Origin: Natronocalculus amylovorans
GTDB taxonomy: Archaea > Halobacteriota > Halobacteria > Halobacteriales > Haloferacaceae
Assembly (NCBI RefSeq): GCF_023638035.1
Contig: NZ_JAKRVX010000001.1
Span: 124,001-188,000 of the forward strand
Direction: 5' to 3'
DNA length: 64,000 bases
Shown piece by piece: positions 41,661 to 52,818 of this stretch; position 1 is the first letter of the stretch; every line of letters begins with the position of its first letter. Made by a program: the position numbers and the translations under genes. The notes under the pieces were generated by a model. That model saw only the letters and a list, made by a program, of their open reading frames with translations, did not search any database and was not told where the DNA came from.

Positions 41661-43418
41661 TTACCGCTGGCGAGCGGTTGCAGTGATGTCGCCTTCGTAG
41701 ACAACGCCCCGTTCTGCATCGAGCGTTACAGTGTCACCAGTGTTGACCGTCTCAGGGAGCGGTGCACCACTGACCATCGGAATACCCAGCTCGCGGGCAA
41801 CAACTGCGGGATAGCCGGTCATTCCGGCTCTCGCGTCAATGATGCCTGCAAGTTTTTTCACGTCACCAGTGAACTCGCCATCAAATCCTGCTGGAAGGAA
41901 CAGAATTGAACCATCTGCAACAGTGGAAAGATCCCCATCCTCGCTTCGAGCGATCGGTCCCGAAACGCGACCACCGGCAATCCGTTTCCCGGTCGCAATT
42001 GTTTCTGCAGCCACGTGGACTTTGAGCATATTCGTTGTGTTTGCACCTTCCATCTCGGTCATCATTCCGGAGAGCACAACGATCGTATCACCGCTTTTTG
42101 CGGCACCTGAATCGAGTGCTGCTTGCACACCATCAGTCAGCACGTCGTCAATTCCGTTGCTGTACTCAATGTAGTGTGGCTGAACGCCCCACGAAAGCGC
42201 CAGTTGGCGGCGGATGCGATCGTTCGGAGAGGTTGCAACGATCGGGACACCTGGGCGGAACTTTGCCGTTTTTCGAGCCGTGTAGCCGGACTCGGATGCA
42301 GCGACAACAGCTGCGGCACCGATATCTCGTGCAAGATAGCGAGCCGATCGGGCCAACGCCTCTGTCCGAGAGGCATCCGTTGCGGTTGGAACCCGCTGTT
42401 CGATATTTTCTGCATACTCTTCGCTTGATTCAACCTGTTTAACGATGTTTGCCATCGTCTCAACAACACGAACAGGATGCCTGCCAATCGCTGTTTCGCC
42501 GGAGAGCATCACCGCATCGGTCCCATCAAGAACCGCATTTGCAACATCTGAAGCTTCTGCACGAGTTGGTCGTCGTGACTGGACCATCGAGTCGAGCATC
42601 TCAGTGGCGGTGATGACAGGGACGCCAGCAGCGACACATTTGTTGATAATCCGTTTCTGTATAATTGGGACGTCTTCAAGCGGGCACTCCACACCGAGAT
42701 CGCCACGAGCAACCATCACACCAGCTGCAGCAGCAACAATCTCATCGAGATTCTCCACTGCGCCTGCACGCTCGATTTTTGCAATCACTGGAATGTCTCC
42801 ACCGCCAAACTCATCGAGCTGATCAATAATCTCATACACGTCCTCTCCATCCCGGACGAAACTTGCAGCAACGAAGTCAGCCCCCTTGTTTGCTGCGAGT
42901 TGCAGTTCATTGAGATCACCAGGTGTAATCAATTCAATATCGAGATCGACACCGGGAACATTGACACCTTTTCGGCTGGTCAGCCCACCACCCGAGATAA
43001 TCTCTGCATACACAGTTTCACCGTCGACCCGTTCAACGATCGCCTCAATTCGGCCATCATCGAGAAGAATTGTGTCACCAGCTTCTGCAGCACCGATCGA
43101 CACTGAGAGCCCAACCTCGCTCGGTGTAGCGTCGTCACCTTCAACGAACGCGACGGTTGAGCCAGTTTCAAGTTCGATCTCGCCGTCGATTGCAGCGGTT
43201 CTGACTTCTGGACCCTTCAGGTCGACCATTACTGCGAGTGGGTCTTCCGAGATTGCGTCAACTGCCCGGACACGGTCGATTACATCTGCCCGATGTTCTG
43301 TCGTTCCATGGCTTGCGTTCAACCGTGCAACAGACATCCCAGCGTCCGCCAATGCTTCGATCGTTGCCCGGTCATCAGACGCAGGACCGAGTGTACAAAC
43401 GATTTTTGCGTTTCTCAT
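41661..43418 (-). CDS. pyk: Pyruvate kinase with C-terminal PEP-utiliser mobile domain
   Basis: A 585-residue enzyme making pyruvate and ATP from PEP. It starts MRNAKIVCTLGPASDD (ATG 43418), followed by VARLNASHG, VMVDLKGPEVRT and VIAKIERAGAVEN with the catalytic lysine. After the allosteric C domain, about 80 extra residues (DGSILFLPAGFDGE...DARAGMTGYPAVVARELGIPMVSG) form a domain homologous to the phosphohistidine domain of PEP synthase; the catalytic His is not present (the motif reads AGMTGYPAVV). Such tails occur in Bacillus and haloarchaeal enzymes. A TrmB-like site lies 41 bases upstream. Confidence 0.93.
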   Translation of the reverse strand: MRNAKIVCTLGPASDDRATIEALADAGMSVARLNASHGTTEHRADVIDRVRAVDAISEDPLAVMVDLKGPEVRTAAIDGEIELETGSTVAFVEGDDATPSEVGLSVSIGAAEAGDTILLDDGRIEAIVERVDGETVYAEIISGGGLTSRKGVNVPGVDLDIELITPGDLNELQLAANKGADFVAASFVRDGEDVYEIIDQLDEFGGGDIPVIAKIERAGAVENLDEIVAAAAGVMVARGDLGVECPLEDVPIIQKRIINKCVAAGVPVITATEMLDSMVQSRRPTRAEASDVANAVLDGTDAVMLSGETAIGRHPVRVVETMANIVKQVESSEEYAENIEQRVPTATDASRTEALARSARYLARDIGAAAVVAASESGYTARKTAKFRPGVPIVATSPNDRIRRQLALSWGVQPHYIEYSNGIDDVLTDGVQAALDSGAAKSGDTIVVLSGMMTEMEGANTTNMLKVHVAAETIATGKRIAGGRVSGPIARSEDGDLSTVADGSILFLPAGFDGEFTGDVKKLAGIIDARAGMTGYPAVVARELGIPMVSGAPLPETVNTGDTVTLDAERGVVYEGDITATARQR

Positions 43419-43458
43419 AATTGCGCTTGGACGGACTGGCTGAAAAAGCCCTATGAAA

Positions 43459-43474
43459 CACTCGAAACCGAGTG
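43459..43474. promoter_or_regulatory. TrmB-like inverted repeat upstream of pyruvate kinase
   Basis: CACTCG and CGAGTG, 6-bp perfect arms around AAAC, equivalent to CACT-N7-GAGTG. It differs from the published Halobacterium TrmB motif TACT-N7/8-GAGTA only in the two outermost bases. It lies 41-56 bases before the ATG, immediately upstream of a weak TATA-like TTCATAG (plus 43451-43457). Confidence 0.5.
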
Positions 43475-49361: not shown

Positions 49362-51737
49362 TTAGCGAACGGAATCTAAGAGGAGTTTCTGTTCAACACG
49401 CTTGACTTCGTGTTGAACATCCCGAACTGCATCGATATTAGGCGATAGTGAGCTAATACCCTGCTCGACGAGGTAGCGAACCATCGCTGGTTTTGAGGCA
49501 GCTTGCCCACAAATACTCGTATTAACATCGAGTTCCCTGCACGTTTCGATCGTATTTGCAATCAGTTCAAGAACCGCAGGGTGGAGTTCGTCAAATCGGT
49601 CTGCGACGTTCTCGTTGTTACGATCGACAGCAAGCGTGTACTGTGTTAGATCGTTCGTCCCGAACGATGCAAAATCAATGCCGGTCTGTGCAATCTCCTC
49701 AATACAGAGTGCGCTTGCTGGTGTCTCGATCATCACACCCCAACGACGTTTTGAGAGATCAATACCCGCAGACTCAATGTGCTGCTTTGCACGGAGTACG
49801 TCTTCGGCATCGTTGACCAGCGGAAGCATGAGTTCAACATTATCATAGCCCATATCATAGAGCCGTTTAAATGCAGCAAGCTCTTGGCCAAAGATATCAG
49901 GCTTATCAAGACTTCTTCGGATACCACGATAGCCAAGCATTGGGTTATGTTCGGTTGGCTCACTCTCCCCACCCGCTAGTTCACGGAACTCATCTGTCGG
50001 TGCATCCATCGTCCGGACGCGAACCGGCCGTGGGTAGAATGCATCCGCAACGGTCCGAATGCCTTTGATTAGTTCATCTTGATAGCCTCGTTCCCCATGG
50101 TCTTTGATGTAGGTTTCAGGCGTTTTCCCGAGCGAAAGAACCATGTGCTCGATGCGAAGCAGGCCGACGCCGTCAGCACCGGTTGCTGCGGCCCGCTCTG
50201 CGGCTTCCGGGATTGAGACGTTGACTTTGACTTCCGTTGCGGTCATCGGTTTCACAGGCGTCTGTGGTCGGACTGAATCAATCGACTCCTGTGAAACAGC
50301 ATCCGAGGATTCAGCATCGCTCTTGCTGTCTGATCCGTCTGTCAGGTCTCCTGAGAGAACAGTCCCTTTCGAGCCATCGATTGTTACTATTTGGCCGTTT
50401 TGAAGCTCTCTTGTCGCACTTCCAGTCCCAACGACTGCTGGAACGCCGAGTTCGCGTGAGACGATCGCTGCGTGAGATGTCATTCCGCCCTCATCAGTGA
50501 CGATTGCAACGGCACGCTTCATCGCAGGAACCATATCTGGCATCGTCATCTCGGTAACAATTACATCACCGTCTGCAACCTGATCGAGGTGGTCGAGTTT
50601 GGTAACAACACGAACTGTTCCAGAAACGAGGCCTGGGCTTGACCCGAGCCCGCGAACGAGTACTGATCCATCCTCATCTTCCCCCTCGATATCCGAGTCG
50701 CCGAGTGAGCCACCATTTGCAACGAGTTCGGAGCCAGCTTTGGCAGCAGATTCACGATCGTCGGCAGTTGCATCTTCAATCTGTTTCGTTCCGGAGATCG
50801 TCGTTATCGGCCGGGATTGGAGCATGAACACGTCACCATCAACGATTGCCCACTCAACATCTTGTGGTGTCCCATAATGCGCTTCGACGATTTCTCCAAG
50901 TTCAACGAGTTTCTCGATCTCGCCATCAGAGAGCACCTGTTTGTCTCTGTGCTCCTCGTCAACTTCGAGTTCGGTTGTTTCGCCCGTTTGTGGGTCTTTA
51001 ACAAGCTTGACTTTCTTGGTAGCAATTGTCGCGGTCTCAATTGTCGCTGTCTCGCGATCGACAACATAGTTATCTGGAGAGACCGTTCCAGAGACAACAG
51101 CCTCACCAAGACCCCATGCGGCCTCAATAATAATTCGTGGCTCACCGGTGGATGGGTGACTGGTAAACATGACTCCGGATTTTTCGGCGTCAACCATCTG
51201 CTGGACAACAACCGCAATATCTACCTCATGGTGTGGGAATCCCTGTCGGTTTCGGTAGTAGATTGCGCGCTGAGAGAACAGCGATGCCCAACACTCCTTC
51301 ACACGATGGAGGAGTTTCTGTTCGGTTACGTTCAAAAACGTCTCCTGCTGTCCTGCAAAAGAGGCGTCCGGAAGATCCTCTGCAGTTGCAGACGATCGGA
51401 CTGCAACAAACGCCTCTTCATCATCGCCAATCGATCGATACGCCTCAAGGATTTCAGTACGTACCTCCTCGGGAAGCGGAGTTCCCATAATTAGATCGTA
51501 GGCAGTCTCCTCCGCTGTCGCGAGTGCGGCTGAGTCCTCCGTATCAATATCCATTGCTTCGAAGAGTTCCTCGTCGATCTCCGCTTTCTCAATGAAGTGG
51601 CGATACGTTCCCGCAGTCACCACGAATCCCGGCGGGACTGGAAGCTCAGCACCAAGAAGTTCACCAAGGGACGCCGCCTTGCCGCCGACTGTCTCAATGT
51701 CGTCAGCACGCACGTCGTCAAGCCAAAGTACAGCCAT
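49362..51737 (-). CDS. ppsA: Phosphoenolpyruvate synthase
   Basis: A 791-residue three-domain enzyme making PEP from pyruvate and ATP, the committing step of gluconeogenesis from pyruvate. The N-terminal ATP-binding domain starts WLDDVRADDIETVGGKAASLGEL. The swivelling phosphohistidine is H422 (DEGGMTSHAAIVSRELG). The C-terminal PEP/pyruvate barrel has GVMIETPAS, FGTNDLTQYTLAVDR and NTSICGQAAS. An acidic haloarchaeal spacer lies between the last two domains. A TrmB-like inverted repeat stands about 65-90 bases upstream. Confidence 0.96.
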   Translation of the reverse strand: MAVLWLDDVRADDIETVGGKAASLGELLGAELPVPPGFVVTAGTYRHFIEKAEIDEELFEAMDIDTEDSAALATAEETAYDLIMGTPLPEEVRTEILEAYRSIGDDEEAFVAVRSSATAEDLPDASFAGQQETFLNVTEQKLLHRVKECWASLFSQRAIYYRNRQGFPHHEVDIAVVVQQMVDAEKSGVMFTSHPSTGEPRIIIEAAWGLGEAVVSGTVSPDNYVVDRETATIETATIATKKVKLVKDPQTGETTELEVDEEHRDKQVLSDGEIEKLVELGEIVEAHYGTPQDVEWAIVDGDVFMLQSRPITTISGTKQIEDATADDRESAAKAGSELVANGGSLGDSDIEGEDEDGSVLVRGLGSSPGLVSGTVRVVTKLDHLDQVADGDVIVTEMTMPDMVPAMKRAVAIVTDEGGMTSHAAIVSRELGVPAVVGTGSATRELQNGQIVTIDGSKGTVLSGDLTDGSDSKSDAESSDAVSQESIDSVRPQTPVKPMTATEVKVNVSIPEAAERAAATGADGVGLLRIEHMVLSLGKTPETYIKDHGERGYQDELIKGIRTVADAFYPRPVRVRTMDAPTDEFRELAGGESEPTEHNPMLGYRGIRRSLDKPDIFGQELAAFKRLYDMGYDNVELMLPLVNDAEDVLRAKQHIESAGIDLSKRRWGVMIETPASALCIEEIAQTGIDFASFGTNDLTQYTLAVDRNNENVADRFDELHPAVLELIANTIETCRELDVNTSICGQAASKPAMVRYLVEQGISSLSPNIDAVRDVQHEVKRVEQKLLLDSVR

Positions 51738-51803
51738 TTCGTATTCGATTGATCCACCAGACAGGTAAAGAAGTTTCCGGACCGCGCAAGCGTGTAAAAA
51801 AGT

Positions 51804-51825
51804 ATACTCAAGTGTGAGTGAGTAT
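51804..51825. promoter_or_regulatory. TrmB-like inverted repeat upstream of ppsA
   Basis: ATACTCA and TGAGTAT, 7-bp perfect arms separated by 8 bases. It contains TACT-N7-GAGTG (51805-51820) and TACT-N11-GAGTA, close to the published Halobacterium TrmB motif TACT-N7/8-GAGTA. On the minus strand the AT-rich TATACTTTTTT that probably serves as TATA follows directly, so the site is in an activator position. Confidence 0.55.
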
Positions 51826-51849: not shown

Positions 51850-52770
51850 TTACGCCTCGATTATCTCATCTTCCGACATATCTGGTATTGTAAGCGTTCC
51901 ATCTGCAGCAGTAACTGCATGTCCACCAACGCGGACAGTTGTTAGCCCCGTTGTCTCATCCGTTTGGACGTCAACGTGTGCATGACCACCACGGTTTATG
52001 AAATGACCTTGTTCAAACTGGAGCGGGTCAACGAACGAATCAAGTGCGCCGTACCATTCGAGATATGCGCCACATGCACCGCTTGCAGTTCCAGTAACTG
52101 GGTCTTCAGGAACGCCGGACGCTGGCGCAAACATTCGTGCGTGGAGTGTCGATGCTGCATCGAGCGTGTCGAAGGTAAACGCGTAGACACCTGCAACATC
52201 ATGTTCCGTCGAAAGCGACGCGATGGCATCCATATCCGGGGCGGCATTTCCAAGCGGTTGGAGAAACGAAACCGGGACCATCAGAAACGGGAGACCGGTA
52301 GATGCACGCGCAATCGGAAGTTCTTCACCAACGTCGGTGAGCGCCGCTTGCTCAATCCCAAGCGCAGCCGCAAGCGCCTCATAGTCGATCGAAACAGCAG
52401 TAACAGAGGGCTCAGCTTGTGTCATCCAGACCATTCCGGACGCGGTAATCTCAACTGAGAGCACGCCGACGTTCGTCTCAAGCGACTGTGTGCCGGTTTC
52501 GATCGTGTCATCTGTTGCAAGCAGTGCGTGAGTTGCAACCGTTGCGTGTCCACAGAGGTCAACTTCTTGTGTCGGTGTGAAGTATCGGATTTTTCGATCT
52601 GCATCCTCACTGGGGAAGAAAAATGCAGTCTCGCTAACCGAAAGTTCGCGTGCAATCGCTTGCATCTGCTCGTCGGACAATCCAGATCCATCTGGGACAA
52701 CGCCTGCAGCATTGCCAGAGAGTGGTGTCTCAGTGAATGCGTCAACAAGTGCAAAGCGACGTGTGTTCAT
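51850..52770 (-). CDS. PhzF family isomerase/epimerase
   Basis: A 306-residue two-lobed protein. It starts MNTRRFALVDAFTETPLSGNAAGVV and has SVSETAFFF with the catalytic glutamate, VDLCGHATVATHAL, and DPVTGTASGACGAYL in the second lobe, all PhzF/DapF-like hallmarks. Family members isomerise amino-acid-like or aromatic acids; the substrate here is unknown. ATG 52770 is chosen over a TTG upstream. It lies 112 bases upstream of ppsA in the same direction. Confidence 0.87.
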   Translation of the reverse strand: MNTRRFALVDAFTETPLSGNAAGVVPDGSGLSDEQMQAIARELSVSETAFFFPSEDADRKIRYFTPTQEVDLCGHATVATHALLATDDTIETGTQSLETNVGVLSVEITASGMVWMTQAEPSVTAVSIDYEALAAALGIEQAALTDVGEELPIARASTGLPFLMVPVSFLQPLGNAAPDMDAIASLSTEHDVAGVYAFTFDTLDAASTLHARMFAPASGVPEDPVTGTASGACGAYLEWYGALDSFVDPLQFEQGHFINRGGHAHVDVQTDETTGLTTVRVGGHAVTAADGTLTIPDMSEDEIIEA

Positions 52771-52818
52771 AGTTTGGTACTTGTTTGACAATTCATAAAG
52801 ACACGTGTCTTTTGACGG

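Follow-up and report, generated by a model that had tools for sequence, protein, structure and literature searches.

Probable TrmB boxes at the ppsA and pyk promoters accompany the TrmB gene across haloarchaea

We analysed a 64,000-nucleotide stretch of the Natronocalculus amylovorans genome (the window) in which an inverted repeat upstream of ppsA very probably holds a well-conserved operator of the regulator TrmB. The putative TrmB box of ppsA is a 16-bp element, CACTCACACTTGAGTA, on the minus strand at 51805..51820, and a second box, CACTCGGTTTCGAGTG, lies at pyk (43459..43474, minus strand). Because both boxes go with the TrmB gene across genomes, and the host encodes that gene, the comparison supports both the TrmB reading and the pairing of ppsA with pyk. 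We therefore hold it highly probable that the repeat contains a TrmB operator activating ppsA when glucose is scarce and that the pyk box serves the opposing enzyme, with binding and the direction of effect taken by analogy from studied systems.

The gene for phosphoenolpyruvate synthase, ppsA (49362..51737, minus strand, 791 aa), matches NF005057 (944 bits) and TIGR01418 (932 bits) above their cut-offs, and its box spans -83..-68 relative to the ATG. On the plus strand the box reads TACTCAAGTGTGAGTG at 51805-51820, with the core, ACTC-N6-GAGT, at 51806-51819. In gene orientation it carries all eight core letters and, in the N7 register, eight of the nine letters of the published string, the first being C and not T; this letter varies across 88 ppsA boxes (A 42%, C 31%, T 25%). 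We collected ppsA orthologues from haloarchaeal genomes (the best 80 of 313 relatives), read their upstream regions and added the window, giving 81 regions. At least seven of the eight core letters are present in 69/81 of these, and the core is perfect in 56/81; the next-best half-site spacing, N10, reaches at least seven letters in 19/81 and is perfect in 8/81. In most upstream regions of the best 80 relatives the box sits about 75 to 85 bp ahead of the start codon, so that the comparison of ppsA upstream positions proposed in the initial annotation shows both position and spacing to be conserved. Across these 80 loci, perfect cores occur 55 times in the 4,880 bp of -110..-50 and 10 times in the 574,103 bp elsewhere (11.27 vs 0.017 per kb), and shuffling ppsA upstream regions produces a perfect core in about 0.1% of cases.

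Scanning the host genome for the motif, also proposed earlier, gave no such signal: ACTCRN4YGAGT has 42 matches against 45 for a reversed control, and TACT-N7..11-GAGTA is likewise not over-represented genome-wide relative to its reversed control, so that genome-wide counts are uninformative alone. When a script assigned the 42 strict sites, 33 fell within predicted genes and 9 in intergenic DNA; the pyk box counted among the 33 because the script chose a longer upstream start. Near the intergenic sites L112, L123, L129, L125 and L146 lie genes that resemble, by eye, those for a ROK glucokinase, a fumarase, a levansucrase-like protein, a siroheme-decarboxylase-like protein and a peptidase/dipeptide-transporter pair.

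The host TrmB gene was located by profile search at G000 C12:81399-82439 (NF047392, 606.5 bits, cut-off 500). Its product has the N-terminal TrmB winged helix and the C-terminal sugar-binding domain, with PF01978 at 15-80 (78.5 bits) and PF11495 at 110-343 (235.9 bits), both above cut-off. The NF047392 cut-off is passed in 247 of 292 haloarchaeal genomes; 44 were classed as TrmB-less, and G073, whose score is intermediate, was excluded from all comparisons. Weaker matches to the TrmB model occur in every one of the 292 genomes, at least one in each, and represent relatives either of TrmB or of its DNA-binding domain. Haloquadratum, the host assumed in the initial annotation, is rejected on the evidence of two genes: the two Hqr. 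walsbyi ppsA proteins compared are 69% identical, against 82% for halophilic archaeon SHRA6 and 81% for Halalkalirubrum salinum, and TrmB gives the same order (75-76% vs 89-90%), in a window of 52% GC. Both Haloquadratum ppsA genes compared carry the box, that of L103 being a perfect TACTCA-N4-TGAGTA.

The ppsA box (at least 7/8 letters, within -110..-50) is found in 19/33 TrmB-encoding and 0/37 TrmB-less genomes (Fisher p=1.3e-8), which supports the earlier reading that a TrmB-type site stands ahead of the ppsA promoter. Counted by genus, the figures are 18/28 and 0/18 (p=4.7e-6); these Fisher values treat related genomes as independent, and when TrmB labels are shuffled within families the association has p=3e-4 (stratified permutation). 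At a looser threshold of 6.5 the counts become 20/33 and 6/37, with shuffled sequence reaching 7%, and at 6 they become 21/33 and 9/37, with shuffled sequence reaching 21%. Since 14 of the 33 TrmB-encoding genomes have no recognisable box, presence of TrmB does not imply a ppsA site. In both classes, some genomes were picked to serve as controls from the same genus or family. Of 80 genomes searched, 70 were used, with the host outside the 33; the search for ppsA gave nothing at E<=1e-100 in eight (G050 and seven members of genus g44), G129 and G188 had no N-terminal match, and second ppsA copies (G193, G217, G278, G314, G056) were left out of the counts. The eight genomes without a match (G109, G148, G168, G216, G219, G292 and G334 of g44, and G050) are all near-complete, and the seven from g44 are also without a TrmB orthologue. 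This set and the best-80 orthologue set are not independent, because genomes overlap (e.g. G032/G060, with identical TrmB coordinates).

Eight genera include both TrmB states among the genomes examined, and only g34 offers an informative contrast: perfect cores stand at both ppsA and pyk in the two TrmB-encoding members examined and at neither gene in the two TrmB-less members examined, and none of the four has a perfect gapII core. In the others (g8, g13, g21, g31, g37, g61 and g62) the ppsA box is also absent from the TrmB-encoding members examined. Comparing lists for the 49 named genomes searched for TrmB, 46 have it, the exceptions being Halolamina salifodinae, Halopenitus malekzadehii and Halovivax asiaticus, and the ppsA box is present in 41/46 with the gene and 0/3 without.

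Whether TrmB would activate or repress ppsA depends in part on which element is the TATA. An AT-rich element adjoining the box, TTTTTTA (51795..51801, minus strand), had been taken for it; we consider it more likely that the main TATA lies some 30 bp closer to the ATG, in a likely core promoter at 51766..51779 (minus strand) formed by a BRE-like CGGAAAC and a TATA-like TTCTTTA, the TATA part at -35..-29. In ppsA upstream regions, TTTWWWW at -72..-52 occurs in 36/88 with a box and 0/63 without, whereas TTC[TA]T[TA] at -50..-24 occurs in 69/88 and 44/63, often preceded, by eye, by CGGAA or CGCAA. Because the element near -35 occurs whether or not a box is present, whereas TTTWWWW is confined to regions with one, we assign the main TATA to the former and regard the AT-rich element as a candidate box-linked accessory or second promoter. 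This assignment would be likely to give a nearly leaderless transcript; leaderless transcripts are reported to make up 72% of the protein-coding ones in Haloferax volcanii, and for haloarchaea a BRE of CGAAA and a TATA of TTWT have been proposed (PMC4983044).

With the -35 TATA, the ppsA box lies upstream of BRE/TATA, its centre mostly 43 bp from the TATA and 37 bp in another group of genomes; with the adjacent AT-rich element as TATA, it does so less clearly. TrmB sites upstream of BRE/TATA are reported to accompany activation (PMC4158304, PMC10817205), while repressor sites lie downstream of the promoter according to one review (PMC4158304) and overlap the BRE in the Har. hispanica study, which names one exception (PMC10817205). 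If the -35 element is the TATA, activation at ppsA is supported, since the distance between box and TATA then resembles that at gapII (~37 bp), unlike that at pyk (20-24 bp). That TrmB is instead bound and represses ppsA, with the AT-rich element touching the box as the real TATA, we judge improbable. Such a reading could draw on the 36 regions in which TTTWWWW stands a few bp off the box and on the repression that goes with BRE-overlapping sites in Har. hispanica; against it stand the restriction of that element to regions with a box, the occurrence of the -35 element with or without one, the likeness in spacing to gapII, which TrmB activates in Har. hispanica (PMC10817205), and the activation of ppsA reported for Hbt. 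salinarum (PMC3794607).

The second box lies at -56..-41 from the ATG of pyk (41661..43418, minus strand), which encodes a pyruvate kinase of 585 aa (TIGR01064, 504 bits, cut-off 306) and has a likely TATA, CTTTTT, at 43443..43448 (minus strand; -30..-25). A pattern search finds a C-T-rich TATA-like element at -38..-30 in 34/70 pyk upstream regions. The related site that had been suggested at pyk is upheld by the genome contrast, with a box in 20/40 TrmB-encoding and 0/30 TrmB-less genomes; restricting positions to -70..-48 leaves 19/40 and 0/30, one of the 20 matches being off position (G094, -25), and a threshold of 6.5 gives 21/40 and 5/30. A pyk match was obtained in 70 of 80 genomes, all of which were used, with the host within the 40; the region of G120 is shortened by a contig end, and second pyk copies (G052, G193, G289) stand outside the counts. 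In genus g8, the four genomes searched (G159, G202, G231, G335) have ppsA and no pyk match at E<=1e-80. Where box and TATA are both recognised (14 genomes), 20-24 bp separate the box centre from the TATA centre downstream of it, placing the box beside, not over, the expected BRE and upstream of the TATA, neither overlapping nor downstream of it. By analogy, repression of pyk through crowding of TFB/TBP is likely, although this geometry is no proof of it. Among 31 TrmB-encoding genomes examined for both genes, 13 from five families, the host included, carry both boxes, 7 carry the ppsA box only, 1 the pyk box only and 10 neither; none of 30 TrmB-less genomes carries either. By analogy with the published systems, reciprocal control of ppsA and pyk by TrmB would be likely, the sign at pyk being the less clear of the two.

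The published target gapII behaves similarly. Perfect cores occur in 21/42 TrmB-encoding and 0/29 TrmB-less genomes, 18 of the 21 at -72..-76 and the rest at -110, -81 and -22; at 7/8 the counts are 30/42 and 3/29, the three TrmB-less matches lying at -103, -22 and -108, and at a threshold of 6.5 they are 32/42 and 7/29. The gene was matched in 78 of 79 genomes, of which 70 plus the host were used; the TrmB-less genomes G160, G078, G319, G310, G075, G240, G056 and G057 fall outside these counts, as do second gapII-like copies in G193, G217, G278, G314, G056 and G057. Host gapII (G000 C2:381721 region) has a box, TACTCGTCGGAGAGTT, at -72..-57 (locus L280:1420-1435), upstream of a CTCGAAAAG/ATTAT core promoter and, measured by hand, about 37 bp from the TATA. 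At host fbp, which may be an operon member, a 7/8 core was not found near the start of the gene. As a separate observation, in several genera a second ppsA-like gene adjoins a second gapII-like gene (53-56% identity). The second ppsA-like loci are G217 C2:378101-380431, G278 C1:1477696-1480011, G314 C1:174967-177285, G056 C1:2026818-2029172 and G193 C1:1168485-1172004; the frames in G217, G278 and G314 are about 450 aa long and match only the C-terminal half.

These distributions also bear on the idea that a different regulator reads the box, for instance a TrmB-family paralogue, which we consider decidedly improbable. The host does have two further full PF11495 proteins (its genome yields three full matches and one weak one), and a box-like TACTCATACCTGAGTA lies near the paralogue L002; yet TrmB relatives are present in all 292 genomes while the ppsA box is missing from every one of the 37 genomes examined at ppsA that are without TrmB itself, and gapII follows the identical pattern. 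The near-consensus TACTCATACCTGAGTA is at L111 (G000 C2:275467-275482), by eye upstream of an amylase-like gene with a divergent glucoamylase-like gene opposite, and may belong to L002. Membership of the TrmBL1/TGM system was rejected: the site does not, by eye, match TATCAC-N5-GTGATA, and the host regulator scores 70 bits against a TrmBL1 cut-off of 650.

The feature first noted was a larger palindrome, ATACTCA-AGTGTGAG-TGAGTAT, which we confirm at 51804..51825 (no strand assigned) by reading the sequence and counting the pattern. It has perfect 7-bp arms and an 8-bp spacer and includes both TACT-N7-GAGTG and TACT-N11-GAGTA, as claimed. Its near edge is at -67 relative to the ppsA ATG (minus strand, A at 51737), in a 112-bp gap between a PhzF-like gene (51850-52791) and ppsA, both on the minus strand. 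The exact ATACTCA-N8-TGAGTAT pattern has one match in the window, and four with at most three mismatches against 1.76 expected. The window contains 147 perfect 7-bp inverted repeats whose spacers measure 0-20, eight of them with a spacer of exactly 8, so such symmetry is commonplace and by itself not significant. The N8 palindrome exists because a third half-site, GAGT on the plus strand (51820..51823), overlaps the box and abuts its core, shifted by 4 bp (ACTCACTC or GAGTGAGT). L028 and L029, the two that stand closest in ppsA among the best 80 of 313 relatives, carry CACTCGCAGCCGAGTA at the equivalent position without the outer arm.

The conserved unit is thus the inner 16-bp box with its 4-bp spacer, and the exact palindrome of the initial annotation is probably wrong as a functional unit. 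A 22-bp unit with an N8 spacer could appeal to the eight regions with a perfect ACTC-N10-GAGT, which include the window, Haloferax, Halobiforma and Natrinema; we give it a very small probability and reject it because spacing 6 dominates across ppsA regions and the outer arm is missing from the closest relatives, and its half-sites, 14 bp apart, would fall on different helix faces. Much of the spacing-10 signal arises because of abutting third half-sites. Exact abutting copies accompany 10 of the 88 ppsA boxes against about 0.7 expected (our own estimate, 2 x 88 / 256, which disregards kinship, several of the ten genomes being relatives). The carriers are the window genome, four Haloferax, two Halobiforma, one Natrinema and two further genomes, and the extra half-site is promoter-distal in the window genome, Halobiforma and Natrinema and proximal in Haloferax. 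The usual case is reversed in the ppsA promoters of L098, L101, L106 and G136, where the N10 pair is perfect and a single mismatch falls in the inner N6 pair. One might speculate, with little confidence, that selection has kept the third half-site because it lets TrmB bind in two registers or accommodates a second dimer, which would make the ppsA response graded or more sensitive. A functionless chance palindrome has next to no probability, for all the 147 inverted repeats in the window, given the conserved position and spacing of the box and its absence where TrmB is absent.

We thus return to the inner box as a TrmB operator, for which published systems supply the model. TrmB of Halobacterium salinarum is reported to bind TACT-N(7-8)-GAGTA in the absence of sugar; within 5 min of glucose addition ppsA falls 3.6-fold and pykA rises 12.7-fold, responses that are greatly attenuated without TrmB (PMC3794607). 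The host shares with that regulon (regulator VNG1451C) the TACT-N7-GAGTA half-site layout, the targets ppsA and pykA and an orthologous regulator by the NF047392 equivalog model; it differs in its box variant, which has an overlapping third half-site. With the regulon of Haloarcula hispanica TrmB (HAH_1548) it shares the TrmB motif at the ppsA and gapII promoters, where Table 2 of PMC10817205 lists peaks with the motif. For that species the paper describes binding at ppsA with no measurable expression change, and it reports the ppsA/pyk control point as absent, interpreted as rewiring of the TrmB regulon; no pyk peak appears in its Table 2, whereas the host has a box at pyk (PMC10817205). In the Thermococcales, TrmBL1/Tgr is described as a TrmB-family sugar sensor that likewise activates or represses according to site position relative to the promoter, through a glycolytic motif, TATCAC-N5-GTGATA, unrelated to the host box (PMC4158304, PMC4706686).

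On this model, a TrmB dimer would contact the two ACTC/GAGT half-sites, whose centres are separated by 10 bp, or roughly one turn of the helix (51805-51820), a contact suggested by the symmetry of the box. When glucose is scarce, TrmB bound some 43 bp ahead of the ppsA TATA would stimulate ppsA transcription, and sugar would release it from the ppsA box. At pyk, the box near the promoter would bring the opposing enzyme under TrmB as well, most likely by repression, and together the two boxes would switch the PEP/pyruvate step one way. TrmB binding, release by sugar and the direction of effect at each gene are carried over here from the Halobacterium and Haloarcula work.

The ppsA box is, from these comparisons, very probably an ordinary, well-supported member of the known TrmB control circuit. 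What is new is the cross-species evidence that the ppsA and pyk boxes both accompany TrmB; we found no such survey of TrmB boxes at these genes in the literature searched, which was largely without subscription papers. The survey yields a defined 16-bp site and a list of genomes for direct testing. Since 13 of 31 TrmB-encoding genomes carry both boxes, the 13 spanning five families, and none of the 30 TrmB-less ones carries either, it suggests that paired control of ppsA and pyk is widespread and probably old in haloarchaea, absent from some lineages, and would be no speciality of Halobacterium.
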